DNA from: Arenibacter aquaticus
GTDB lineage: Bacteria; Bacteroidota; Bacteroidia; Flavobacteriales; Flavobacteriaceae
Direction: 5' to 3'
DNA length: 64,000 nt
Assembly (NCBI RefSeq): GCF_003957295.1
Contig: NZ_RQPJ01000002.1
Span: 372,001 to 436,000, forward strand
A program made the translations under genes and the position numbers. Positions 22,235 to 33,819 of this stretch are shown one piece after another (within the stretch, counting starts at the first letter, position 1; every line of letters begins with the position of its first letter). Under the pieces are notes generated by a model. The model was not told the origin of the DNA. It made no database searches and saw only the letters and a program-made list of their open reading frames with translations.

Positions 22235-23515
22235 TTAAGAAATTTTTTCCATCTTTTTTCTAATCTGTTCCAGACAAAGATTTCCAAAGCTCCCTTCATG
22301 GGTGTGTTTTATGTCCCTTTTGGGTGTAAAACTGCCATCGTTTATTTCCTTGCCCATTTTCTTATAGGCATCCCTAAATGGCATACCGGACAAAACCAAC
22401 TCGTTCAATGTATCAACACTAAAGAGGTAATCGTACTTAGGGTCGTCCAATATATTTTCATTTACCCTTATTTCTTTTAAGCTAAAGGTAAGGATCTCCA
22501 AACAGGCCTTTAGGTCCTGAATAGCGGGTACAATCACCTCTTTCACCAACTGAAGGTCCCTATGATACCCGCTGGGCAGGTTGTTCATGATCAATATTAA
22601 TTGGTTGGGAACTGTTTGTAGTTTGTTACACTTACCACGCACCAATTCAAAAACATCCGGATTTTTTTTATGTGGCATTATACTGGATCCGGTAGTAAGT
22701 TCATCCGGAAAGGAAACAAAATTAAAGTTCTGGCTCATATATAAGCAGATATCCATCGCCATTTTAGACAGGGTAGCTGCAATACTGCTCATACCAAAGG
22801 CTGCTGCCTTCTCTACCTTGCCCCGTCCCATTTGCGCTGCCACCACATTGTATTTTAAGGTCTCAAACCCCAATTCCTCTGTTGTAAAACTTCGATCTAC
22901 AGGAAAGGAACTACCATAGCCTGCTGCACTACCCAAGGGGTTTTGGTCGGCTACCTTATAGGCTGCATCCACAAAATAGAGGTCGTCTACCAAGCTTTCC
23001 GCATAGGCAGAAAACCATAGTCCGAAGGAAGAGGGCATAGCCACCTGTAAATGGGTATACCCGGGCAGCAAAACGTTCTTGTGCTTATCTGCCAGATTCA
23101 ATAGCAGGTGGAACAATTCCTTGGTTTGGTCCTTAATTTCCTGCAATTCATTTTTGAGGTATAAGTGCATGGCCACCAAAACCTGATCGTTCCTAGAACG
23201 GGCAGTATGAATCTTTTTACCGGCATCACCCAACCTAAGGGTCAGCAAAAATTCAATTTTGGAGTGCATGTCCTCAAAACTATCCTCTATAGTGAAGGTA
23301 CCATTTTCTATGGTCTTGGCAATAGTGTCCAATTCCTGTACTAGGGATTCGGTCTCCTTTAGGGTCAACAAACCAATCTTACCCAGCATTTTGGCATGTG
23401 CCTTAGATGCAATGATGTCATACTTTGCCAAGAGCAAATCCAATTCCCTGTCATTGCCAACGGTAAAATGGTCTATTTTTTTGTCAGTGCTAAATCCTTT
23501 GTCCCAAAGTTTCAT
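22235..23515 (-). CDS. argH: argininosuccinate lyase
   Basis: Cleaves argininosuccinate to arginine and fumarate, the last step of arginine synthesis. 426 residues of the fumarase/aspartase superfamily. The signature GSSIMPHKKNPDVFE contains the mobile-loop catalytic serine; HTARSRNDQVLVAMHLYLK is the N-terminal substrate-binding segment, and GYTHLQVAMPSSFG is also present. It is the last gene of the ten-gene arginine/proline cluster read right to left, 70 bases after argE. Confidence 0.95.
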   Translation of the reverse strand: MKLWDKGFSTDKKIDHFTVGNDRELDLLLAKYDIIASKAHAKMLGKIGLLTLKETESLVQELDTIAKTIENGTFTIEDSFEDMHSKIEFLLTLRLGDAGKKIHTARSRNDQVLVAMHLYLKNELQEIKDQTKELFHLLLNLADKHKNVLLPGYTHLQVAMPSSFGLWFSAYAESLVDDLYFVDAAYKVADQNPLGSAAGYGSSFPVDRSFTTEELGFETLKYNVVAAQMGRGKVEKAAAFGMSSIAATLSKMAMDICLYMSQNFNFVSFPDELTTGSSIMPHKKNPDVFELVRGKCNKLQTVPNQLILIMNNLPSGYHRDLQLVKEVIVPAIQDLKACLEILTFSLKEIRVNENILDDPKYDYLFSVDTLNELVLSGMPFRDAYKKMGKEINDGSFTPKRDIKHTHEGSFGNLCLEQIRKKMEKIS

Positions 23516-23585: not shown

Positions 23586-24650
23586 TCACAACAAGAATCC
23601 CTGTAAAATTTTAATATACAAATCTATTCCTTCCTCTATTTCTGCTACATATATAAATTCGTTCGCAGAATGGGAACGGGTACTGTCCCCTGGTCCCAGT
23701 TTTAGTGATTGGCAGCTCAATGCCGCCTGATCGGACAGAGTGGGCGAGCCGTAACTTTCCCTTCCCAGGGCCAATCCTGATCTTACCAAGGCGTGATCCT
23801 TATCTATGGAAGAGGAATTCAACCGCAAAGAGCGGGGCTTTACCTCACAAGGAGCCTCTTTATCCAAAATATCGGCAATTTCCTTGTTGGAATAGCAGTC
23901 ATTGACCCGTACATCAATTACCAAGTCTACGTGGCCCGGCACTACGTTATGCTGATTGCCCCCTCCTATCTGGGTCACGGTAAGTTTTACCTCCCCCAGC
24001 ACCTCGGATACTTTTGGAAAACGATAATCCTTAAACCACTGCAACACCTCAATGGTATTGTAAATAGCGTTGTTATTATTGGGATGGGCCGCGTGTGAAG
24101 GCGTACCGCTAACCTTTCCATCAAAGACTACCAGGCCTTTCTCGGCAATGGCCAATTTCATCAAGGTAGGCTCACCAACTATGGCAACGGATATCTCCGG
24201 TAGTATGGGCAACATACTATTTAAGCCGTTGGGACCAGAACTTTCCTCCTCGGCCGAGGCCACGATAACCATGTTGTGCCCTAGGTTTTCCTTAGCGTAG
24301 AAATGTGTAAAGGTAGCTATAAGGGATACCAAGCATCCCCCCGCATCATTACTTCCCAATCCATATAATTTTCCATCCTCAATATGAGGGTGAAATGGGT
24401 CTTTTGTATAGGCCGAATTAGGCTTAACCGTGTCATGGTGCGAATTCAACAACAAGGTGGGCTTACTTTCGTCAAAGTGTTTATTAAAGGCGTATACATT
24501 GTTCTTCTCCCTTTTAAATGGGATATCAAAAGCGTTGAACCAATCTTCAATAGCATCTGCCGTCTTATCTTCCTCCGAGGAAAACGACTGAATGGAAATG
24601 AGTTGCTTCAGAAGTTCAATGGCCTTTTCCGTAAGTTTATCCTGATTCAT
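23586..24650 (-). CDS. argE: M20-family deacylase, N-acylcitrulline/N-acylornithine deacylase
   Basis: Zinc-dependent M20 amidohydrolase, 354 residues. Metal-site segments are LLNSHHDTV, GSNDAGGC and SAEEESSG, with the dimerisation domain in the middle and the last ligand near the C-terminal RSHSANEFI. In pathways using an acylornithine carbamoyltransferase this enzyme removes the acyl group from acylcitrulline rather than acylornithine; the argF' gene next door implies the same here (N-succinylcitrulline or N-acetylcitrulline). The start is two bases after the argB stop, so the genes are translationally linked. Confidence 0.88.
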   Translation of the reverse strand: MNQDKLTEKAIELLKQLISIQSFSSEEDKTADAIEDWFNAFDIPFKREKNNVYAFNKHFDESKPTLLLNSHHDTVKPNSAYTKDPFHPHIEDGKLYGLGSNDAGGCLVSLIATFTHFYAKENLGHNMVIVASAEEESSGPNGLNSMLPILPEISVAIVGEPTLMKLAIAEKGLVVFDGKVSGTPSHAAHPNNNNAIYNTIEVLQWFKDYRFPKVSEVLGEVKLTVTQIGGGNQHNVVPGHVDLVIDVRVNDCYSNKEIADILDKEAPCEVKPRSLRLNSSSIDKDHALVRSGLALGRESYGSPTLSDQAALSCQSLKLGPGDSTRSHSANEFIYVAEIEEGIDLYIKILQGFLL

Positions 24651-24652
24651 AG

Positions 24653-25432
24653 TTATAAGGTAATGGTTGTGAACAAGGTGGCATTGGAATCTAACATTTC
24701 TATATCCCCTATGCAGACCTTCCCTACATTTTTGTGAAGCGCATGAAAGCAGTTTTCTAATTTAGGCAGCATGCCATCCGCTATGATCTTTTGTTGCAAT
24801 AATTCTTTATAATTCCCGGGCTCCAGATGTTTTACAACAGAACTCTCGTCCGCAATATCCATTAAAACCCCTTTCTTTTCAAAGCAATAGTACAGAGTGG
24901 TATCATAATCCTTGCTCATCCCAATCGCCACTTCCGAGGCAATTGTATCCGCATTGGTATTTAACAGCTGTCCATCCCCATTATGTGTTATAGCACAGAA
25001 AACCGGTACAAAATTGGCTTGAAGCAATTTGTCTACAGCTTGGGCATTTACTTCCTCCACATCCCCGGCAAAACCATAATCAATTTCTTTTACAGGACGT
25101 TTCACTGCCCTAATGGCATTCCCATCGGCACCACTCAGTCCAATGGCATTGGTACCTTTGGCCTGTAATTGTGCCACTATATTCTTATTGGCCAATCCGC
25201 CATAAACCATGGTAATTACCTTAAGTCCCTCTTCATCGGTAATTCGCCTACCGCCTACCATTTTGGACTCTATACCTAGTTTTTCGGCGATTTGGGTAGC
25301 CAGTTTCCCCCCGCCGTGCACTAAGATCTTAGGACCTTCCATGGCGGCAAAGACATCCAAGAACCTGTTGAGTTCCTTCTGGTTCTCAATGACATTACCA
25401 CCAATTTTTATAATCGATAATTTTTGTTTCAT
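24653..25432 (-). CDS. argB: N-acylglutamate kinase
   Basis: Amino-acid-kinase-family enzyme phosphorylating N-acetyl- or N-succinylglutamate, 259 residues. Recognised segments: IIKIGGNVIE (phosphate-binding), LVHGGGKLATQIAEKLG, VGGRRITDEE, LSGADGNAIRA and LNTNADTIASEVA. The lack of an N-terminal extension suggests it is not the arginine-inhibited hexameric form, leaving control to transcription. Because argF' here predicts succinylated intermediates, N-succinylglutamate is a plausible natural substrate (inference). Confidence 0.92.
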   Translation of the reverse strand: MKQKLSIIKIGGNVIENQKELNRFLDVFAAMEGPKILVHGGGKLATQIAEKLGIESKMVGGRRITDEEGLKVITMVYGGLANKNIVAQLQAKGTNAIGLSGADGNAIRAVKRPVKEIDYGFAGDVEEVNAQAVDKLLQANFVPVFCAITHNGDGQLLNTNADTIASEVAIGMSKDYDTTLYYCFEKKGVLMDIADESSVVKHLEPGNYKELLQQKIIADGMLPKLENCFHALHKNVGKVCIGDIEMLDSNATLFTTITL

Positions 25433-25521: not shown

Positions 25522-26463
25522 CTATTTTATACTCTCCAACAACTTCTTCAGGACAATCTGTGCGGAATAAGTTCGGTTATTGGCCTGTTCTATTACCAAG
25601 GAGTCCTCGCTATCCAAAACCTCATCGGCCACCACTATATTACGTCTTACTGGCAAGCAATGCATAAACTTGGCATTGGCCAGCTTCTTTTTAGTCATGG
25701 TCCAATTTCCGTCCAGGCTTAGCACCTTTCCGTAGTCATCATAACTACTCCAATTTTTTACATATACAAAATCGGCTCCCTCCAAGGCCTTTTCTTGATC
25801 GTATTCCACTTCAATCCCCTTGGTAAGCCTTGGATTTAGGTCGTACCCCTTTGGATGGGTAATAACAAAATCGGCATCCTGCAATTTCATCATTTCCACA
25901 AAGGAATTGGCCACTGCGTGTGGCAAGGCTTTGGGGTGAGGTGCCCAGGACAAAACTACCTTTGGCCTTTTTTTGGTGTTCTGTTCAGACAAGGTAATAG
26001 CGTCTGCCAAGGCCTGTAAGGGATGTCCAACGGAACTTTCCATATTCACAACAGGAATACCGGCATACTTTTTAAATCCGTTCATAACTACCTCGGCCTC
26101 ATCCTTTTTCTTGTCCGTTAGTGAGGCAAAGGCCCGTATGGCTACTATATCGGCATATTGAGCCACAACTTGGGCAGCCTCCTTAATATGTTCGGAAGTG
26201 CCTTGATCCATAACGGTCCCATCTTCATATTCCAAAGCCCATCCTTCGCTTCCAAAATTCATCACTATTACCTCCATTCCTAAATTCATAGCCGCCTTTT
26301 GCGTACTTAACCGGGTTCTTAGACTATTGTTGAAAAATAATAAACATATAGTCTTGCCCTGTCCCAAGTACTTGTGTTGACGCGGGTCTGCCTTTAGTGA
26401 TTTAGCTTCTTCTACCCACTGTGGTAGGGAATCGATATCTTTTAGGGATAAATAATGTTGCAT
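25522..26463 (-). CDS. argF': N-acylornithine carbamoyltransferase, predicted succinylornithine type
   Basis: Transfers a carbamoyl group to an N-acylated ornithine. 313 residues. The carbamoyl-phosphate loop is FFNNSLRTRLST (43-54); further segments are SWAPHPKALPHAV and FMHCLPVRRN. It resembles the Bacteroidota/Xanthomonas acylornithine enzymes rather than ordinary OTCase, having HCLPVRR and a proline loop instead of the SMG ornithine loop. The position reported to set acyl specificity (Glu92 in the Xanthomonas acetyl enzyme, Pro90 in the Bacteroides fragilis succinyl enzyme) is S90 here, in MDQGTSEHI. A small non-acidic residue at this site favours succinylornithine. Four bases separate it from proB. 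Confidence 0.9.
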   Translation of the reverse strand: MQHYLSLKDIDSLPQWVEEAKSLKADPRQHKYLGQGKTICLLFFNNSLRTRLSTQKAAMNLGMEVIVMNFGSEGWALEYEDGTVMDQGTSEHIKEAAQVVAQYADIVAIRAFASLTDKKKDEAEVVMNGFKKYAGIPVVNMESSVGHPLQALADAITLSEQNTKKRPKVVLSWAPHPKALPHAVANSFVEMMKLQDADFVITHPKGYDLNPRLTKGIEVEYDQEKALEGADFVYVKNWSSYDDYGKVLSLDGNWTMTKKKLANAKFMHCLPVRRNIVVADEVLDSEDSLVIEQANNRTYSAQIVLKKLLESIK

Positions 26464-26467
26464 TTTT

Positions 26468-27229
26468 TTATTTTATAGTTGTAAAAGCTGTTTTGTTTTC
26501 TATGGCATTAATAATAAAATTATCATTGATACCGTTTACGATCCAAGTTTCTATATTGGCTTGCCTTGCAATATTGGCAGCTTCTATTTTGGATTCCATT
26601 CCTCCCGTTCCATGGGAAGATTTTGAACTGCTGACCTCCTTCTGCAAATCGTCTAGGTTGCTGGCCTCTTTAATGGTTTTTGGATCCTTGTTAATGAAAG
26701 ACTCTTTGGTATAAATACCATCGGTGTTGGTAGCGATGACCAAGAGATCTACCTTCATTAGTGCCGCGGTCAAAGCAGCAAGTTTATCATTATCCCCAAA
26801 CTTTATTTCATCGGTAGCCACCGTATCATTTTCATTAATTATTGGAATGAAGTCATTGGCTACAAGAACATTGATGGTATTGCAGATATTTTCTTTGGAT
26901 ACTTCCTTTTCAAAATCGGAATAGGACAACAAACACTGGGAGGTGAGCAACCCCAATTCCCTGAAATTTTCCTGAAAAATACGCATCAGGTGGGGCTGAC
27001 CAATAGAGGCCAGAGCCTGTTTTACGGTAATTTCCTGTCCGTTATGCTCTAACTTTACAAATTGTTTGGCAGCTGCAATAGCCCCAGAGCTAACTATGAT
27101 AAATTCATAACGGTCCTTTAGCTTGGCAATCTGCCGACCAATATCCTCTATCTTTCCCCTGGAAATATGATCTGTTTCCTTGGTTAGGGTGTTGGATCCA
27201 ATTTTTAATAAAATTCTTTTTTTCTGCAT
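26468..27229 (-). CDS. proB: glutamate 5-kinase, short form without PUA domain
   Basis: First step of proline synthesis: glutamate to glutamyl 5-phosphate. 253 residues make up only the amino-acid-kinase domain: ILLKIGSNTL, VSSGAIAAAK, INENDTVATDEIKFGDNDKL and THDGIY-like ATNTDGIYTKE, ending after TGGMESKIEAA. The C-terminal PUA domain found in enterobacterial ProB is absent. ProA, the next enzyme and the usual neighbour, is not in the cluster. The 113 bases upstream before argD contain no intact gene. Confidence 0.92.
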   Translation of the reverse strand: MQKKRILLKIGSNTLTKETDHISRGKIEDIGRQIAKLKDRYEFIIVSSGAIAAAKQFVKLEHNGQEITVKQALASIGQPHLMRIFQENFRELGLLTSQCLLSYSDFEKEVSKENICNTINVLVANDFIPIINENDTVATDEIKFGDNDKLAALTAALMKVDLLVIATNTDGIYTKESFINKDPKTIKEASNLDDLQKEVSSSKSSHGTGGMESKIEAANIARQANIETWIVNGINDNFIINAIENKTAFTTIK

Positions 27230-27342: not shown

Positions 27343-28470
27343 TTACGCCAATTCCTTTTCCAAAGCCTCAAAAAATTGATCTAAATGCTCTTTGGTGATA
27401 TTCAAAGCAGGCAATACCCTTAAAACGTGCTTATCACTGGCTCCTCCGGTGAACATATGCTGGTTATGGATCAATTTCTTTCGCAATTGGGCAACTTCAA
27501 AATCAAATTCCAATCCTAACATAAGTCCCATCCCCTTTACTCTTTTCACTTGTGGGATAGAAGCTACTTTTTCTTTGAAATAATCAAAAAGTTGAGCCGA
27601 ATTTTCTATGAGGTTCTCTTTTTCCAGGACTTCCAATACGGCCAATCCTGCGGCACAGGCCAGGTGGTTACCTCCAAAAGTGGTTCCTAATAATCCGTAG
27701 GACGCCTTTATGCTTTCGTGAATCAAAACACCGCCAATAGGGAAACCGTTGCCCATTCCTTTGGCTACGGTAATAATATCTGGTTTAATGCCATAGTGTT
27801 GAAAGGCAAAAAACTTACCACTTCGGCCATAACCACATTGCACCTCATCGGCAATAAGCACCACCTTGTTTTCTTTGCAAAGTGCGGCGATATTACTGTA
27901 AAACTCTTGGGAAGGTTGATCCAATCCGCCTACCCCTTGAATGGTTTCTATAATAACGGCACAAACATCGCCTTTGGACAATTCACTTTTAAAGGTTTCC
28001 AAGTCCTCAAAAGGCAGTATGCTTACCTTCTGCTGCTTATTTATAGGGGCATTGATCTTTTCGTTGTCGGTTGCAGCCACAGCTGCGGAAGTTCTTCCAT
28101 GAAAACCCTGTTTAAAAGAAATTACCCTAGACTTCCCAGTTTGGAAAGAAGCTAATTTCAAGGCATTTTCATTGGCTTCTGCTCCGGAATTGCACAAAAA
28201 CAAATTGTAATCCACACAACCCGAAAGTTCACCCAGCTTTTGGGCCAAGTTTTTTTGGATAGGATTCTGGACCGCATTGCTATAAAAACCAATTTTGTCT
28301 AACTGTCCTTTTATTCGCTCCACATAATGAGGATGGGAATGTCCTATGGAGATTACGGCATGTCCACCATAAAAATCCATATAATCCTGACCTTTGTCAT
28401 CGGTAACAACTATACCTTTGGCCGAAACCGGAGTAACGTCATATAGGGGGTATACATCAAATAATTCCAT
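27343..28470 (-). CDS. argD: acylornithine/ornithine aminotransferase (class III, PLP)
   Basis: PLP-dependent aminotransferase of 375 residues from the ATG at 28470; a start nine codons further out (28497) is also open. FNSGAEANENALKLA-type segment (LCNSGAEANENALK), FHGRTSAA, IADEVQCGYGRSGKFFA and the Schiff-base lysine in ITVAKGMGNG are visible. In the arginine pathway it makes N-acylornithine from the acylglutamate semialdehyde. It lies between proC and proB, so ornithine delta-aminotransferase activity is conceivable, but position in the arg operon favours ArgD. Confidence 0.9.
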   Translation of the reverse strand: MELFDVYPLYDVTPVSAKGIVVTDDKGQDYMDFYGGHAVISIGHSHPHYVERIKGQLDKIGFYSNAVQNPIQKNLAQKLGELSGCVDYNLFLCNSGAEANENALKLASFQTGKSRVISFKQGFHGRTSAAVAATDNEKINAPINKQQKVSILPFEDLETFKSELSKGDVCAVIIETIQGVGGLDQPSQEFYSNIAALCKENKVVLIADEVQCGYGRSGKFFAFQHYGIKPDIITVAKGMGNGFPIGGVLIHESIKASYGLLGTTFGGNHLACAAGLAVLEVLEKENLIENSAQLFDYFKEKVASIPQVKRVKGMGLMLGLEFDFEVAQLRKKLIHNQHMFTGGASDKHVLRVLPALNITKEHLDQFFEALEKELA

Positions 28471-28504
28471 CTTATTATTTTTTATAGCTATGCTCACTGC
28501 TAAA

Positions 28505-29299
28505 TTATCCTTTTTTAATTTCGTTTATTTTATCAAATGATGCCACTATACCGCGGATCAAGGACGAGCTCAGTCCTTGGTGCTCCATTTCGTTCAATCC
28601 GGAAATGGTACAGCCCCTTGGGGTAGTAACCTTATCTATTTCATTTTCTGGATGGCTTTTGGATTCAATAAGCAAACTGGCCGCACCATTACAGGTATGC
28701 ATGGCCAATTCCTGGGCCTCCTTTGCATCGAAGCCCAATTGAATGGCCCCTTGGGTTGTAGCTCTAATGAGACGCATCCAAAAGGCAACACCACTGGCAC
28801 ATATAACTGTTGCCGCCTGCATTTGTCCTTCCGGGATCTGCATGCAATGCCCCATACGGTTAAAGATGGCCTTGGCCAGATCTACCTTTGAGGCACCCTT
28901 TTCATTATTACAGATACAGGTCATTGATTTTCCCACGGAAATGGCCGTATTGGGCATTGCCCGTATTATGGAATGATCCTTCCCTATGACTTCTTCCATT
29001 CGGGAGATGCTAAAACCAGTGATGGTTGAAATAACAACGTGCTCTTGGGTAAGCAGGTCTTTAACTTCCTCCAATATCTTCACAAATTGTCCGGGCTGCA
29101 CGGCAAATATTAATACATCAGCTTTGGAAACTGCCTCCCTATTATTGGTGGTAGTGCTTACGTTACCGTATTTTTCCACCTCCTTTAAACCACTGAGATC
29201 TCTTTTGGTGAGGACCATGGAAGTGGCCCCGTTGGTGCCCAATATACCCTTTGCAATGGACAATCCTAAATTTCCTGCTCCAATAATGGCTATTTTCAT
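28505..29299 (-). CDS. proC: pyrroline-5-carboxylate reductase
   Basis: NAD(P)H-dependent last step of proline synthesis, 264 residues. The Rossmann motif IAIIGAGNLGLSIAKG begins two residues from the chosen start (29299), which is why the ten-codon upstream extension was rejected. Family segments: FAVQPGQ, IRAMPNTA, SGVAFWMRLI and VTTPRGCTISGL, the usual signature near the C-terminus. It is embedded between argC and argD in the arginine operon. Confidence 0.93.
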   Translation of the reverse strand: MKIAIIGAGNLGLSIAKGILGTNGATSMVLTKRDLSGLKEVEKYGNVSTTTNNREAVSKADVLIFAVQPGQFVKILEEVKDLLTQEHVVISTITGFSISRMEEVIGKDHSIIRAMPNTAISVGKSMTCICNNEKGASKVDLAKAIFNRMGHCMQIPEGQMQAATVICASGVAFWMRLIRATTQGAIQLGFDAKEAQELAMHTCNGAASLLIESKSHPENEIDKVTTPRGCTISGLNEMEHQGLSSSLIRGIVASFDKINEIKKG

Positions 29300-29401
29300 T
29301 CCTTGATACTTATAGTTTGATCCCAACATCCCAGGATGCCGGTATTTGGTTTATATATTGGTTCACTGTCCTCATGACTTCATTACCAAAGATTCACCAC
29401 A

Positions 29402-30376
29402 CTAAAATACACCCGCTTTTAACTTTAGGCCTTCCGTTTCCCCAAATCCAAACATGAGATTCATATTCTGTACTGCCTGCCCAGAGGCCCCCTTTAAAAG
29501 GTTGTCTATGGCCGAGGTAATAAGAAGGGTATCCTTGTGCTTGTGTAAATGAATATGGCACTGATTGGTATTTACTACTTGTTTTAGATTGATGTCGGTT
29601 TCCGATATCTGGGTAAATGCGGCATCTTTATAAAAGGCCCTGTACAGCTCATAGGCATCTTCCAGGCTACCCTCATAACTTGTGTAGGCCGTAGCCAATA
29701 TTCCTCTGGTAAAATTCCCCCTATTGGGCAAAAAGAATATCTCGCCGGTATTTTCCTGAAGGCTTTGCAAACTTTCTGTAATCTCTCCCAAGTGCTGATG
29801 GGTAAATGGCTTGTACCAGGAAACATTATTGTTTCGCCAGCTAAAATGTGATGTAGCGGAAAGGCTCACCCCAGCACCAGTGCTTCCGGTAACTGCATTG
29901 ATATGCACAGGCTTATCCAACTTATTATCCTTTGCCAAGGGCAACAATGCCAATTGTATGGCAGTGGCAAAACAACCCGGATTGGCAATATAACTTGCCT
30001 TCTCTATTGCTTCACTACGAAGTTCCGGCAATCCGTAAACAAAGTTCTTACCATCAAGCACGGCATCGGCCGTCAACCTAAAATCATTACTTAGATCTAT
30101 GATCTTAGTCTGGGCAGAGAAATCGTTTTCCTTAAGAAAAGAAGTGGAGTTTCCATGTCCAAGACATAGAAAAACAACATCTACCTCCTTATTCACCTCC
30201 CCGGTAAACGCCAGCTCGGTAACCCCTAGGAGATCTGGGTGGGCCGTTGTAATTTTTTTACCTGCCCTGGTTGTACTAAAAACAAAATCTATTGTGGTCT
30301 GCGGGTGGTTCAAAAGAATTCTGATGAGTTCACCACCAGTATACCCCGACCCCCCAATAATACCTACTTTAATCAT
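29402..30376 (-). CDS. argC: N-acylglutamyl-phosphate reductase
   Basis: Reduces N-acylglutamyl 5-phosphate to the semialdehyde with NADPH. 324 residues. The Rossmann motif IIGGSGYTGGELIRIL is at the N-terminus, and the catalytic cysteine is in ANPGCFATAIQLAL. Its start codon lies within the end of argG (8-base overlap), implying translational coupling. The length is that of the short, unfused ArgC type. Confidence 0.95.
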   Translation of the reverse strand: MIKVGIIGGSGYTGGELIRILLNHPQTTIDFVFSTTRAGKKITTAHPDLLGVTELAFTGEVNKEVDVVFLCLGHGNSTSFLKENDFSAQTKIIDLSNDFRLTADAVLDGKNFVYGLPELRSEAIEKASYIANPGCFATAIQLALLPLAKDNKLDKPVHINAVTGSTGAGVSLSATSHFSWRNNNVSWYKPFTHQHLGEITESLQSLQENTGEIFFLPNRGNFTRGILATAYTSYEGSLEDAYELYRAFYKDAAFTQISETDINLKQVVNTNQCHIHLHKHKDTLLITSAIDNLLKGASGQAVQNMNLMFGFGETEGLKLKAGVF

Positions 30377-31559
30377 TGTTCTGGTTTACGTGGTTATAAA
30401 TTTTTCCCGAATTGGAAAGTATCTTAATAAATCCTTTGGCGTCATCAGCCGTCCAGCCTTTGTTCATCTCACCATAGCTACCAAAAGAGGCATTCATAAG
30501 GTCGTGCGGCGATGCTATGCCATCCAACTCAAATCTATATGGGTGAAGGCTAACAAACACATCACCACTAACATTCTTTTGGGTATCTGTAAGAAAGGCT
30601 TCAATATTTCTCATCACCTCATCCAAATAGTTACCTTCGTGCAACAACATACCATAGAAGTTACCTTGTTGCTCCTTTTGGTACTGCTGCCATTTGGTAA
30701 GCGTATGTTTTTCCAATAGATGGTGGGCCTTAATAATGATCAAGGAAGCAGGTGCTTCAAAGCCAACCCGTCCCTTAATGCCAATTATGGTATCCCCCAC
30801 ATGTATATCCCTGCCTATGGCGTATTTGGAAGCTATGGCCTCCAATTTAATTATATTGTTTACAGGAGTATCATTTTCACCGTCAATAGCAATCAACTCT
30901 CCCTTCTGGAAAGTCAATTTCAATTGTTTAGGCTCGGTTTCCTCAAGCTGGCTTGGATAAGCGTTGTCCGGCAAGGATTTGTGGGAAGTAAGAGTTTCAT
31001 CACCCCCTACCGAGGTTCCCCACAGACCTCTATTAATGGAATATTTAGCCTTTTCCCATGGATAGTCTACCCCATTGCTCTTTAGGTATTCAATTTCTAC
31101 CTCCCTAGCCAATTTATTATCCCGTATAGGGGTAATGATTTCAATTTCCGGGGCAATGATCTGAAAAATCATATCAAACCTAACCTGATCGTTACCTGCT
31201 CCTGTACTACCGTGGGCAATATATTTGGCCCCTACTTTTTTGGCGTAATTTACTATCTCAATGGCCTGTACGATACGCTCAGCACTAACGGACAGAGGAT
31301 AGGTATTGTTCTTTAGGACATTGCCAAAAATTAGATATTTTACTACTTTCTCATAAAAAGTTTGGACCGCATCTATAGAGGTATAGGATGTTGCTCCCAA
31401 TTCCAAGGCTTTCTTGTGAATACTTTCAATTTCTTCCTCAGAAAACCCTCCGGTATTTACACTTACGGCATGAACCTCAAAACCTTTGTCCTTTGATAAA
31501 TACTTGGCACAATAGGAAGTATCCAATCCACCACTATATGCTAAAACTAATTTCTCCAT
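30369..31559 (-). CDS. argG: argininosuccinate synthase
   Basis: ATP-dependent condensation of citrulline and aspartate. 396 residues. The PP-loop is LAYSGGLDTSYCAKYL at residues 5-20; the citrulline/aspartate region includes GSTGAGNDQVRFD. NRGLWGTSVGG follows in the multimerisation region. It is the second gene of the operon, 42 bases after the GNAT gene. Confidence 0.96.
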   Translation of the reverse strand: MEKLVLAYSGGLDTSYCAKYLSKDKGFEVHAVSVNTGGFSEEEIESIHKKALELGATSYTSIDAVQTFYEKVVKYLIFGNVLKNNTYPLSVSAERIVQAIEIVNYAKKVGAKYIAHGSTGAGNDQVRFDMIFQIIAPEIEIITPIRDNKLAREVEIEYLKSNGVDYPWEKAKYSINRGLWGTSVGGDETLTSHKSLPDNAYPSQLEETEPKQLKLTFQKGELIAIDGENDTPVNNIIKLEAIASKYAIGRDIHVGDTIIGIKGRVGFEAPASLIIIKAHHLLEKHTLTKWQQYQKEQQGNFYGMLLHEGNYLDEVMRNIEAFLTDTQKNVSGDVFVSLHPYRFELDGIASPHDLMNASFGSYGEMNKGWTADDAKGFIKILSNSGKIYNHVNQNND

Positions 31560-31601: not shown

Positions 31602-32231
31602 CTACTTTGATTTTTTACTTAGAAACAAACTTTCTTTTATACTTTTTAATCTTTTAAATGCCTTGGAATTTATTTTTTCCGCAACCGATTCCTTTTCCTT
31701 TTCTTTTTTGGTTGCCGGATCATAAAGCATCCCGGTACAAAGGCACATTTTTTGTTCGGTCCTTGTTAGGATATCAAAATTCTTACAGGTCTGACAGCCT
31801 TTCCAAAACTCGGGATCATCCGTAAGTTCTGAAAAGGTAACCGGCTTATAGCCCAGTTCATAATTCATTTTCATAACCGCAAGACCAGTGGTAATCCCAA
31901 AAATTTTTGCATCAGGGAATTTTTTTCTGGAAAGGTTGAAAATCTCCTTTTTTATTTTTTTTGCCAAACCTTGATTTCTATAGTCAGGATGTACAATGAG
32001 GCCTGAATTAGCGACAAATTTTTCATGTCCCCAAACCTCTATATAGCAGAACCCGGCAAACTTATCCCCATCCAAGGCTATAACGGCATTGCCATTATGC
32101 AGTCTCTTCTGGATATATTCCGGGGTACGCTTAGCAATCCCCGTACCACGCACCTTAGCCGACTCTGCAATAGTTTCGCAGATAACTTCGGCATATTTAA
32201 AATGGGAATCGTCAGCAATAACAATCTTCAT
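31602..32231 (-). CDS. GNAT acyltransferase heading the arg operon, candidate glutamate N-acyltransferase
   Basis: 209-residue GNAT protein. The acyl-CoA loop appears as VHPDYRNQGLAKKIKKEIF (about 87-105). The C-terminal part has two cysteine pairs (CQTC and, 16 residues on, CLC) followed by a lysine/glutamate-rich tail. It is the first gene of the arginine operon, where no argJ and no classical argA are present, so it is the best candidate for making N-succinyl- or N-acetylglutamate. That role is inferred from position and the gap in the pathway. The cysteines could bind a metal or be regulatory. Confidence 0.75.
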   Translation of the reverse strand: MKIVIADDSHFKYAEVICETIAESAKVRGTGIAKRTPEYIQKRLHNGNAVIALDGDKFAGFCYIEVWGHEKFVANSGLIVHPDYRNQGLAKKIKKEIFNLSRKKFPDAKIFGITTGLAVMKMNYELGYKPVTFSELTDDPEFWKGCQTCKNFDILTRTEQKMCLCTGMLYDPATKKEKEKESVAEKINSKAFKRLKSIKESLFLSKKSK

Positions 32232-32281
32232 TGAATGTTGCTTTAAAAATTAAAAATTAAGTTTTGTGTTTTTTTGAGAGG

Positions 32282-32303
32282 GGAAATGGACTCACCTATT
32301 TCC
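32282..32303 (-). other. hairpin in the arg leader RNA
   Basis: In the minus-strand transcript GGAAAT-A-GG, loop TGAGT, then CCATTTCC forms an 8-bp stem with one bulged A. It lies between the leader ORF and the GNAT gene. No U-run follows at once, so it is not a standard terminator, but it could act as a pause or attenuator element. Confidence 0.5.
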
Positions 32304-32315
32304 ATAAAAGAATTG

Positions 32316-32329
32316 CACCCTTACGGGCG
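32316..32329 (-). other. short hairpin over the leader ORF stop codon
   Basis: Minus-strand CGCCC, loop GTAA, GGGTG: 5 bp with one G-U pair. It includes the last Arg-Pro codons and the stop of the leader ORF, so a ribosome stalled on those codons would keep it open. Confidence 0.4.
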
Positions 32330-32410
32330 ACGACGTGTACGTGTAGGCGTAAAAGAATGAGCAAGGCTAGTAGCCCTGTCAAAATCAAATATGTACGCTA
32401 TATTGCTCAT
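32321..32410 (-). CDS. argL: predicted arginine-operon leader peptide
   Basis: A 29-codon ORF on the minus strand (ATG at 32410, TAA at 32323-32321) between the arg promoter box and the first arg gene. The peptide ends TPTRTRRRP: four of the last six residues are Arg (five of 29 overall), three of them consecutive and directly before Pro-stop. This is the classic layout of a ribosome-mediated attenuator sensing charged tRNA-Arg. The ATG is only 8 bases after a perfect TACTTTTG -7 box, so the transcript probably starts two or three bases before it. The start region (ATGAGCAA) can pair with TTGCTCAT inside the ORF. Gene name is by analogy only. Confidence 0.75.
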   Translation of the reverse strand: MSNIAYIFDFDRATSLAHSFTPTRTRRRP

Positions 32411-32411
32411 T
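32356..32411 (-). repeat. inverted repeat pairing the leader start with the leader interior
   Basis: Arms 32356-32364 and 32403-32411 are perfectly complementary over 9 bases (AATGAGCAA/TTGCTCATT) and enclose a second small hairpin GGCTA-C-TAGCC at 32365-32375. In RNA this would hide the leader start codon, giving two mutually exclusive folds when the ORF is or is not translated. Confidence 0.6.
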
Positions 32412-32418
32412 GTAATAT

Positions 32419-32426
32419 CAAAAGTA
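32419..32426 (-). promoter_or_regulatory. -7 promoter box of the arginine operon
   Basis: Minus-strand TACTTTTG exactly matches TAnnTTTG. The -33 region is poor (TTG only 11 bases upstream), which may mean a weak or activator-dependent promoter. It lies just beyond the stop of the upstream mannosyltransferase-like gene on the same strand. Confidence 0.6.
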
Positions 32427-32457
32427 CAAATAAAATTCAATTGACGTAATTAATACA

Positions 32458-33819
32458 TTATTTTTTATGAAAAAGTTGTTTTTTGTTATATAAACGCACT
32501 AATTCATAGGTCATAAATCCATATACTGCCAAATACTCAACTGTTAGCAACAAATAATTCTCCTTAAAACCTGCAACGGAATAGGCCCAATAACTAAGGA
32601 TAATGCTCAGGGACCACACAAGAGGAAATCTAAATTCTGTAAACAGGGCTAGGAAAACCAGAAAAATTATATACCAAGGGTGTACCGTGGCCGACAAAAA
32701 ATAATAGACCGTTAACACCCATAACATTGCGGCAAATAAAGCTACCGTCTTTTTGTTATCCCTTAAAAAGGCAAAAAGACCTACCGTAACAATCACCACC
32801 ACCGGGGTTATTTTGCCATAATCCTTGATCAATTCCCATGGCTTGGCATTAAACTGAATGCCGATATTTTTAACAAGGTTGTAAAAGCCAGCATTGAATT
32901 CAAAGTTTGAAAACCACAGGCCAACAGTATGGGTATAATTCTCCAAAAAATCCAGTGAAAAAAATGGGGATACCAATAAAAGTGAACTTAGCCCTACGAT
33001 AGCATAAAAAAACAAGCTCTTTTTAAAGCCCAGGTAAGAAACAAACAAAGGAAGAAAAATCAAGGGCACCAATTTAATGGAAATGGAGAGGGCATATATA
33101 AGAGCCGCCAGCTGCCATTTTTTATTGTGCAAAAGGTAAATAGACCATATAAAAAAGAACAACATAACCCCTTCAAAATGAAGATTTCCGGTAAGTTCCA
33201 AGATCACCAAGGGATTAAGGAAATACCAAAAAATTAAATGGGTAGACCTGTTTAGTTTTTGCAACAGTTTACGCCCAAAATAAAGAATCCCCAAATCCGA
33301 AAGTATTATACTCGTCCTCATAACAAGGATAGCAACTGTAATATTTTTACCTGCAAAAAAAGTAGATAATCCAAAGATAAGCTGGTTTAAAGGGGGATAA
33401 TTACTATAATTGGAAGCACTTAAATTACCCATACCGCTTACCAACTCCATGGCATTGGGCATAAATTGGTTGTTCTCTGCAATAAGATCCTTGGGCAGGT
33501 GCAAATAAGGACTCATTCCCAGATTTAGCATTTGACCGTCCCAAATAAATCTATAAAAATCCTGGGACAGATTGGGGGTAGCAAAGAATAGGCCTAGGCG
33601 AAAAATTATTCCCGCTATGGCCAAAAACTTAAAATTCCACTTTTCAAACTGAATTAGCTTATAGCACAAAAAAAAGAGGGCGAGATAGAGTATAAGCAGT
33701 TTTAGAAAATCCGTTCTTTCTAAATCATAACCAAAGGTGATATAAAATAGGGTGCTCAAAAGCGCCAATAAAACTGGAATTTTATGAAGTTTCCAATACG
33801 AAACTACCCTATGCAACAT
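32458..33819 (-). CDS. polytopic membrane glycosyltransferase, mannosyltransferase/GT87-like
   Basis: About 453 residues with 10-12 hydrophobic segments. A conserved acidic loop after the first helices (FRLGLFFATPNLSQDFYRFIWDG, where the NLSQDFYRFIWDG part is the typical catalytic Asp loop) marks the GT-C fold using a polyprenyl-phosphate sugar donor. The frame is open 44 codons further upstream to 33951, but that part is soluble and not family-like; a TACTTTTG box at 34016-34009 on the minus strand is compatible with either start. It is the last of three glycosyltransferase genes on this strand and probably adds a sugar on the outer face of the inner membrane. Substrate unknown. Confidence 0.8.
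   Translation of the reverse strand: MLHRVVSYWKLHKIPVLLALLSTLFYITFGYDLERTDFLKLLILYLALFFLCYKLIQFEKWNFKFLAIAGIIFRLGLFFATPNLSQDFYRFIWDGQMLNLGMSPYLHLPKDLIAENNQFMPNAMELVSGMGNLSASNYSNYPPLNQLIFGLSTFFAGKNITVAILVMRTSIILSDLGILYFGRKLLQKLNRSTHLIFWYFLNPLVILELTGNLHFEGVMLFFFIWSIYLLHNKKWQLAALIYALSISIKLVPLIFLPLFVSYLGFKKSLFFYAIVGLSSLLLVSPFFSLDFLENYTHTVGLWFSNFEFNAGFYNLVKNIGIQFNAKPWELIKDYGKITPVVVIVTVGLFAFLRDNKKTVALFAAMLWVLTVYYFLSATVHPWYIIFLVFLALFTEFRFPLVWSLSIILSYWAYSVAGFKENYLLLTVEYLAVYGFMTYELVRLYNKKQLFHKK

Follow-up and report, generated by a model that had tools for sequence, protein, structure and literature searches.

The attenuators of the his, trp, leu, thr and pheA systems share a layout: a short open reading frame (ORF) with codons for the amino acid that the pathway makes, hairpins that overlap it, and the biosynthetic operon downstream. 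Arginine synthesis is normally under the control of ArgR. The subject here is a leader with the same layout that is probably a ribosome-sensing attenuator for arginine, serving the whole arginine/proline (arg/pro) operon behind it. It lies within 64,000 nucleotides of Arenibacter aquaticus (Flavobacteriaceae), contig NZ_RQPJ01000002.1, positions 372,001 to 436,000 of the forward strand (this whole stretch is called the window, and all coordinates are its own). As in attenuators of the his/trp type, the choice of codons appears to be restricted by isoacceptor, which is what theory predicts (PMC1183508, available passages). Unlike those attenuators, the locus has arginine as its amino acid, has Arg codons that run into a hairpin arm, with the stop codon in the loop, shows no strong conserved antiterminator, carries an extra hairpin (H2, below) and, in some genera, is preceded by a second leader in tandem.

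Leader-peptide attenuation as such is known already, with clues from amino acid operons of Flavobacterium in print: the available passages on F. psychrophilum speak of strong clues for it upstream of amino acid biosynthesis operons (PMC9723704). Short ORFs resembling leader peptides occur in long 5′ untranslated regions (UTRs) of Bacteroides thetaiotaomicron, which belongs to the same phylum; the available passages name no arg gene (PMC7366714). Salmonella orf34 (SpeFL), upstream of speF, resembles our leader in its consecutive Arg codons and in that the arginine level sets ribosome pausing. It differs in belonging to polyamine synthesis, in that arginine lowers speF by way of mRNA structure, Rho and RNase G, and in that its Arg codons are numbers 12 and 13 of 34 and not at the end (PMC6386406, available passages; the two are likened by description only). 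In the open-access literature, supplements not covered, no arginine leader in Bacteroidota, no element like the one described below and no tandem leaders were found.

In fungi, the upstream peptide of arg-2/CPA1, a eukaryotic element tied to arginine synthesis, undergoes nascent arrest induced by free arginine; the codon bias of the present leader argues, in contrast, for sensing of tRNA. T-box RNA binds uncharged tRNA and needs no leader peptide, and Bacteroid-trp is an RNA motif of Bacteroidetes. Arginine T-boxes, reported in other species, are alike in exerting arginine control at the RNA level by way of tRNA-Arg (PMC1262725, available passages), and Flavo-1 is another Bacteroidetes RNA motif (PMC9723704, available passages). 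The leader has no counterpart in Rfam: no match reached a gathering score anywhere in the 64-kb window, and only chance-level matches fell at 32200-32500. The element matches no riboswitch, T-box or other cis-regulator known to Rfam.

A conserved reading frame rich in arginine codons

The features of the leader are these (the samples of loci are defined below):

32419 to 32426, minus strand: −7 box TACTTTTG (TAnnTTTG), sigma-A type, read from the sequence, with an 8-nt gap to the ORF
32321 to 32410, minus strand: leader peptide ORF (ORF2 type) of 29 codons, MSNIAYIFDFDRATSLAHSFTPTRTRRRP and stop, from sequence and conservation in relatives
32362 to 32378, minus strand: H0, CAGGGCT-ACT-AGCCTTG, resembling a pause hairpin, inside the ORF, from a terminator-hairpin scan and folding
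32327 to 32341, minus strand: putative regulatory Arg codons CGT-ACA-CGT-CGT-CGC, from conservation of Arg positions in 80 named loci
32316 to 32329, minus strand: H1, CGCCC-GTAA-GGGTG, which shares bases with the final Arg codon, the Pro codon and the stop; possibly a terminator or a hairpin sensitive to the ribosome
32304 to 32315, minus strand: U-rich spacer between H1 and H2 (53% T and 11% G over 65 loci)
32282 to 32303, minus strand: H2, GGAAAT-A-GG-TGAGT-CC-ATTTCC, with a near-invariant tip and a covarying lower stem

The ORF, read from 32410 to 32321, ends P-T-R-T-R-R-R-P-stop and stands between a same-strand ORF upstream (stop at 32458) and the gene of a GNAT acetyltransferase (start at 32231), the first of the operon, downstream. 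Four of its final six codons specify Arg. In 16 genes of the window Arg makes up 3.2% of 6154 codons, which gives a binomial probability of 1.5e-5 for at least four Arg in six. Over the whole window and both strands, the leader alone among 726 ATG ORFs with 8-60 codons has at least four Arg in the last seven codons, and it alone among 6388 stop-ended frames has at least four in the last six. The motif CGNCGNCGNCCNTAA occurs once in the 5.2-Mb genome, at the leader (a reversed-pattern control occurs four times). The initial annotation had described a −7 box, an 8-base gap and a 29-codon ORF with an Arg content at its end far beyond expectation; all of this is borne out, on the minus strand, which it had left unstated.

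Two sets of relatives were compared. The family sample takes one genome per genus from 120 genera; 76 of these have a GNAT match, and the DNA upstream of it was read for 73 (G121, a partial match, and G127 and G144 were left out). The 80 named loci are those closest by GNAT, the best 80 of 362 genomes encoding a relative, hence not an even sample; their genera include Arenibacter, Maribacter, Zobellia, Flagellimonas/Muricauda, Cellulophaga, Eudoraea, Robiginitalea and Pricia. Counts of frames, folding and upstream leaders (ORF1) come from the 65 of the 73 family loci that could be anchored by a relaxed pattern of the H2 tip. As anchor for the reading frame, a CGCC-like motif was taken to be an Arg codon. 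It fixes by construction the Arg there and, in effect, the Pro behind it, and it leaves free the Arg at other positions, the open frame and the stop. A hairpin-free test repeats the comparison without the anchor, looking within 350 nt upstream of GNAT for an ORF of 15-45 codons with at least three of one amino acid in its last six codons.

All 18 Arenibacter genomes have the leader, 27 codons long in 17 of them and 29 in the window, and every one ends TRRRP-stop. In each of the 80 named loci a frame of 25-29 codons opens with ATG and closes with R-P-stop where an H1-like motif lies, the R and P being fixed by the anchor. The hairpin-free test finds Arg in 76 of 80 named loci, whether ATG or any NTG is admitted as start, and in 46 (ATG) or 58 (NTG) of the 73 family loci. 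The runner-up amino acid reaches 4 or 8 of 80 and 3 or 9 of 73, respectively, and Arg on the opposite strand 1 of 80 and 1 or 3 of 73. The short ORF with conserved 3′ Arg codons that the initial annotation proposed to seek in relatives is thus found, by these counts, and its lack in related genomes, which the annotation had named as refuting, is not what the comparison shows. The leader is a short ORF enriched in codons for the product of the operon, presumably translated, and by sequence it is conserved in relatives ahead of the same pathway.

Position by position, Arg stands at −3 in 76, at −4 in 78 and at −5 in 33 of the 80 named loci; at −2 the anchor sets the Arg. Over the 65 family loci, the ORF frame has Arg at positions −1 to −10 from the anchor in 51, 30, 11, 18, 21, 19, 14, 8, 8 and 4 cases, against 0-8 per position in the other two frames, so that the excess fades at about −9. 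None of the 65 has a stop within 16 codons of the ORF frame, and stops are numerous in the other two. Of the single-base differences that the 80 named loci show in the last five codons, 87% are synonymous, versus 0.7% and 3.3% when the other frames are read (the pairs compared are not independent, and the constraint on the final two codons is due partly to H1). Further upstream, in codons 13-23 from the stop, the synonymous fraction is 0.215, versus 0.322 and 0.201 in the other frames. Because this is no excess, the N-terminal part of the leader is evidently not constrained as a peptide.

The choice of codons is narrower than the choice of amino acid would demand. All 187 Arg codons at −3 to −5 in the 80 named leaders are either CGT (113) or CGC (74), and CGT and CGC account for 163 of the 184 Arg codons at −1 to −10 in the 65 family loci. 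The operon genes themselves (counted in the window only) use AGG 29 times, AGA 18, CGT 15, CGG 9, CGA 8 and CGC 2, so that 47 of 81 are AGR. Presumably a single tRNA-Arg is shared by CGU and CGC. According to the available passages on attenuation theory, regulatory codons are expected to be confined to those of a particular isoacceptor (PMC1183508). The use of CGY alone points to sensing of tRNA and not of a peptide, since such a restriction is expected of attenuation and needless for a peptide sensor. A constraint towards CG-rich RNA could add to the preference.

Predicted transcription starts and tandem leaders

The −7 box of F. psychrophilum spans −12 to −5 relative to the transcription start (PMC9723704, available passages), and the position of TACTTTTG therefore predicts a start near 32414 and a 5′ UTR of only about 4 nt. 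In all 80 named relatives the leader ATG is preceded by a −7-like box (TAnnTTTG with no more than one mismatch) that ends 5-9 nt before it, the gap being 7 nt in 53 and 8 nt in 20 (7-8 nt in 73 of 80). Of the 1116 ATGs present in the upstream regions of the family, 908 lack such a box within 20 nt; the box stands at 4-5 nt in 36 and at 7-8 nt in 32.

The window belongs to a lineage with a single leader. A second Arg-rich ORF is found in 29 of the 65 family loci (e.g., L021, L052, L062, L074 and L083), ending 118-179 nt upstream of H1. That of L062 reads MKNLENKIRCTTSGLPARNRRRCF and stop, and the general pattern is like MKNLKNKIR..PGLP.RNRRR. These upstream leaders were selected for Arg; the control is a count of the hairpin-free type, by which a closely similar criterion yields Arg in 30 of the 65 loci, Leu in 13, Lys in 11 and Arg on the opposite strand in none. 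Of their 119 Arg codons, 107 are CGC or CGT. For 25 of the 29, the gap between the end of a −7-like box (one mismatch allowed) and the start codon is 4-5 nt, which would put the start codon at a predicted +1 or +2. This would be unusual, since leaderless mRNAs make up 5.5% in F. psychrophilum (PMC9723704, available passages). As 18 of the same 29 loci also have a −7-like box 4-6 nt upstream of the downstream leader, the two leaders may be read either in series or from separate starts. The initial annotation had overlooked H2, the second leader that other genera carry in tandem, and how short the 5′ UTR is predicted to be.

The hairpins of the leader

The minus strand of the leader contains two terminator-like hairpins where 0.2 would be expected, one of them H0, and H1 plus its tail scores as terminator-like. 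Hairpins had been placed after the ORF by the initial annotation, and they are present, with H0 lying within the ORF itself. The 189-nt leader as a whole does not fold with unusual stability (z −0.72), so the evidence for structure is comparative and not thermodynamic.

Over the 65 loci the strong shared helices are H0, H1 and H2 only. A hairpin like H0 is often found near −48 to −31, counted from the last Arg codon, and its arms differ between genera; the mean stem score is 14.2, versus 11.1 when shuffled, and only 16 of the 65 single loci exceed the 95th percentile. H1 is paired in 94.0% of cells in 68 sequences and shows little covariation.

H2 has a lower stem of some 6 bp, then a short 5′ bulge whose last base is mostly A (in most loci it is 1-3 nt long), a GG/CC step and, as its loop, UGNGU. 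Paired directly, its arms form at least five pairs in 62 of 63 loci (mean 6.2); when arms are swapped between loci with different 3′ arms the mean falls to 3.1, with 1292 of 3430 swaps still forming at least five. In an alignment of 68 sequences fitted to R1, a covariance model of the H1/H2 element, all six lower-stem pairs have changed on both sides. Of the 64 cells with changes on both sides, 59 belong to the lower stem, 3 to the tip and 2 to H1; shuffling gives 15.2 such cells. The covariation score reaches 0.293, versus 0.146. The H2 tip is present in all 80 named loci, and in its exact form, GGTGNGTCC, in 63 of the 73 family loci and in none of five loci from other families.

In four loci (L058, L066, L071 and L076) the tip lies 84-113 nt from the GNAT gene instead of about 60, and two of these (L066 and L076) have a hairpin TTCCTG..CAGGAA between H2 and the gene.

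Three further ideas about H2 were tried. The tip might mimic the complement of the 3′ end of 16S rRNA (GGUGAUCC). This idea was rejected on two grounds: the tip contains one base too many, and in L051, L064 and L088 the inner G-C has become A-U, which keeps the pair and breaks the complement (L051 with an adjoining mismatch). Nor is H2 a general part of attenuators, having one significant match in the window genome and a single place in 90 of the 93 family genomes that match. Contact between the loop and another leader sequence found no support: with A in the loop (48 of 65 loci), the matching complement occurs in 17, versus 29 for another; with T it occurs in 10 of 12, but that 4-mer is common everywhere.

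Distribution among genomes

Twenty-three of these sequences served to build R1 and so match it by construction. The window sequence is among them, and it matches at 32335-32282 with an E-value of 6.8e-17. At E ≤ 0.01, R1 matches 68 of 78 searched loci, all among the 73 family loci. Searches of many genomes were run with stricter filters, which lose weak matches. The window genome has one significant match (E 5.5e-15; the next has E 5.65). In the family, 93 of 149 genera have R1 at E ≤ 0.1, in a single place in 90 and with a second weak match (E > 0.02) in three. That the position is upstream of GNAT was checked in 68 loci and, by the tip, in the 80 named loci. In a sample of the order, R1 at E ≤ 0.1 is found in 15 of 148 genomes, 11 of them within the family and four others weak (E 0.019-0.061); in a sample of the class, at E ≤ 0.01, it is found in 3 of 198, all within the family.

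The presence of the element goes with that of argG. True argG is present in 78 of the 120 family genomes, and R1 (E ≤ 0.01) occurs in 70 of these 78 and in none of the 42 others. (Here G055, G067 and G092, with a weak argG-like match at E 2e-4 to 9e-4, are counted as lacking argG, and R1 matches at E > 0.01, in G087, G106 and G147, are not counted.) Among the eight argG genomes with no counted R1, G147 has a weak match (E 0.038), and G049 and G083 have no GNAT match either. Five genomes have GNAT and no R1 match, G065, G097, G101, G113 and G142 (loci L087, L094, L085, L089 and L049, respectively); in L087, L089 and L094 the frame upstream still ends with at least three Arg in 14 codons near the position of H1.

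The initial annotation had remarked that ArgR is the usual control of arginine synthesis. The remark does not apply here: PF02863 was found in none of the 120 family genomes, including none of 100 of good completeness, and the same search was positive in 8 of 14 controls, Bacteroides among them. By this count the operon is not one controlled by ArgR.

In other families of the order, four loci (L025, L028, L226 and L229) have Arg-rich short ORFs upstream of GNAT and lack the H2 tip. The range of the Arg leader appears to be wider than that of H2.

Genus g143 (L216-L221) has neither an Arg-rich leader ending nor the H2 tip upstream of GNAT. Four of its loci (L216, L218, L219 and L221) have another conserved stretch in common, one that contains the hairpin ACTTC-TCCC-GAAGT. 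The stretch encodes MNKTSLHITSLSRTNRPTTSPEVRML and stop in L216, and the Arg leader may have been replaced by another.

Genes behind the leader

The operon that the leader would control runs on the same strand, as the initial annotation had it; Pfam and NCBIfam uphold the order of its arg and pro genes behind GNAT:

31602 to 32231, minus strand: GNAT acetyltransferase, first gene of the operon, with a Cys-containing C-terminal part (PF13508, PF00583)
30369 to 31559, minus strand: argG, argininosuccinate synthase (PF00764; TIGR00032 above cut-off)
29402 to 30376, minus strand: argC (TIGR01850 above cut-off)
28505 to 29329, minus strand: proC (TIGR00112 above cut-off)
27343 to 28497, minus strand: argD-like aminotransferase (TIGR00707 best, 374 bits, below the cut-off of 410)
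26468 to 27229, minus strand: proB (TIGR01027 above cut-off)
25522 to 26463, minus strand: argF′-type N-acyl-ornithine carbamoyltransferase (NF003384 best, 281 bits, just under the cut-off of 288)
24653 to 25432, minus strand: argB (TIGR00761 above cut-off)
23586 to 24650, minus strand: argE/dapE-family deacylase (PF01546 above cut-off; TIGR01910 below cut-off)
22235 to 23515, minus strand: argH (TIGR00838 above cut-off)

Several Cys residues (CQTCK, CLC) in the C-terminal extension of the window GNAT may form a metal site. In genus g173, with genomes of 0.6 Mb (L227, L228 and L230-L234), the GNAT homologue lies inside an open frame of about 590-620 amino acids, a length that would suit a fusion to the next enzyme (probably ArgG). 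Such a fusion, if real, would tie GNAT to arginine synthesis.

How the leader may work

Comparison of sequences supplies a conserved open frame with Arg codons, a conserved H1/H2 element with one significant copy in the window genome, its restriction in the sample to genomes with argG, and no ArgR. From these we infer that the leader is translated and that stalling on it raises expression through H1. Transcription would start a few bases upstream of the ORF, and a ribosome would load immediately. When charged tRNA-Arg (the CGU/CGC isoacceptor) is scarce, the ribosome would stall on the Arg codons and cover the 5′ arm of H1; RNA polymerase would then pass H1 and its U-rich tail, and the operon would be on. 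When arginine is plentiful, the ribosome would reach the stop codon and leave, H1 would form, and most transcripts would end there. Since the stalled ribosome itself would cover the arm, no antiterminator would be needed. An attenuator of this sort would stand in for ArgR. The initial annotation had proposed an arginine attenuator leader, and the comparisons support it; that stalling would lead to more operon RNA, and that H1 would be a terminator, are inferences.

Several observations weigh against this reading. H1 is short (five pairs, one of them G-U), and its imperfect U-tract follows several bases later, which makes a weak terminator. No strong shared antiterminator emerges from base-pair probabilities averaged over the 65 loci, whether or not a ribosome footprint is blocked; a 9-bp alternative pairing in the window, CCGUAAGGG/CUUUUAUGG, is slightly more favourable than H1, and such pairings are weak over the 65 loci. 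The leader fold, as noted, is not unusually stable. The early Arg codons are too far upstream for a ribosome stalled on them to cover H1. Fifteen of the 73 family loci fail the hairpin-free Arg test, five of the 73 lack R1, and genus g143 has no R1 match in the 10 genomes listed. Finally, the conservation of H2, which lies downstream of the presumed point of termination, is left unexplained. An attenuator of the classical three-hairpin type (trp/his) is not claimed, because mutually exclusive antiterminator pairing was looked for over these loci and no strong shared case was seen.

The weakness of H1 as a terminator is what would recommend, as a rather unlikely alternative, that translation of the leader acts on Rho-dependent termination or on mRNA decay. 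The precedent is Salmonella speF, where two Arg codons of orf34 control Rho termination and decay by RNase G (PMC6386406, available passages). Against it stands the conservation of H1 and the U-rich spacer.

Perhaps it is the RNA that regulates, H1 and H2 binding a protein or a small molecule such as arginine or ornithine, while the ORF only shields the leader from Rho and RNases. The covariation of six of six lower-stem pairs, the near-invariant GG-UGNGU-CC tip, the absence of an Rfam match, and the location of the element at the arg operon (its one significant copy in the window genome, with a second weak match in only 3 of 93 genomes) all speak for this reading. Nevertheless, H2 is very small for an aptamer, and the leaders of other families that lack the H2 tip (L025, L028, L226 and L229) imply that the Arg codons are independent of it. 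We consider a regulatory RNA with a merely protective ORF to be unlikely.

Ligand-dependent arrest by a nascent peptide is known from the fungal arginine attenuator peptide and from TnaC and SpeFL, and Pro before a stop codon is a slow context for release. One might imagine that a nascent peptide rich in Arg and Pro arrests the ribosome on free arginine (or ornithine), termination at Pro-stop being the step that is sensed. R-P followed by stop does occur in all 80 named loci (the R and P partly set by the anchor, the stop free), and endings like VRPF.PRRRP recur. Against this, several family loci (e.g., L020, L045, L047, L067, L082 and L088) lack the Pro-stop end, have the stop outside the H1 loop and keep the Arg codons; the Pro codon is needed for the H1 stem as well; the N-terminal half shows no synonymous excess; and a peptide sensor gives no reason for the strict use of CGT and CGC. 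A sensor of this kind seems improbable.

That the Arg codons are a chance by-product of a CG-rich hairpin arm is hardly credible: the last Arg and Pro codons do lie inside H1, which might make the R-R-P end partly structural, but the Arg excess reaches about eight codons upstream of H1, in one frame only and with a synonymous pattern, and the hairpin-free test, with its amino acid and strand controls, still holds.

An arginine attenuator that reads charged tRNA-Arg is thus the reading we prefer, and it may be part of something larger. As a tentative proposal for the Flavobacteriaceae, one or two leaderless or nearly leaderless Arg leaders in series would read charged tRNA-Arg, and the separate, arg-specific H2 would bind, as second signal, a protein or one of the pathway's small molecules, making a composite device with two inputs. 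If so, H2, with its GG-UGNGU-CC tip, would be a new class of RNA regulator.

Significance

Attenuation by leader peptide would be extended by this locus to arginine in the Bacteroidota. It brings with it tandem leaders whose start codons coincide with the predicted transcription start or adjoin it, and a conserved hairpin that has no match in Rfam. The exclusive use of CGY codons makes the theory of attenuation by tRNA isoacceptor testable in a new phylum. For the Flavobacteriaceae, a very large and mainly marine family, the leader offers an answer to how arginine synthesis may be controlled without ArgR.
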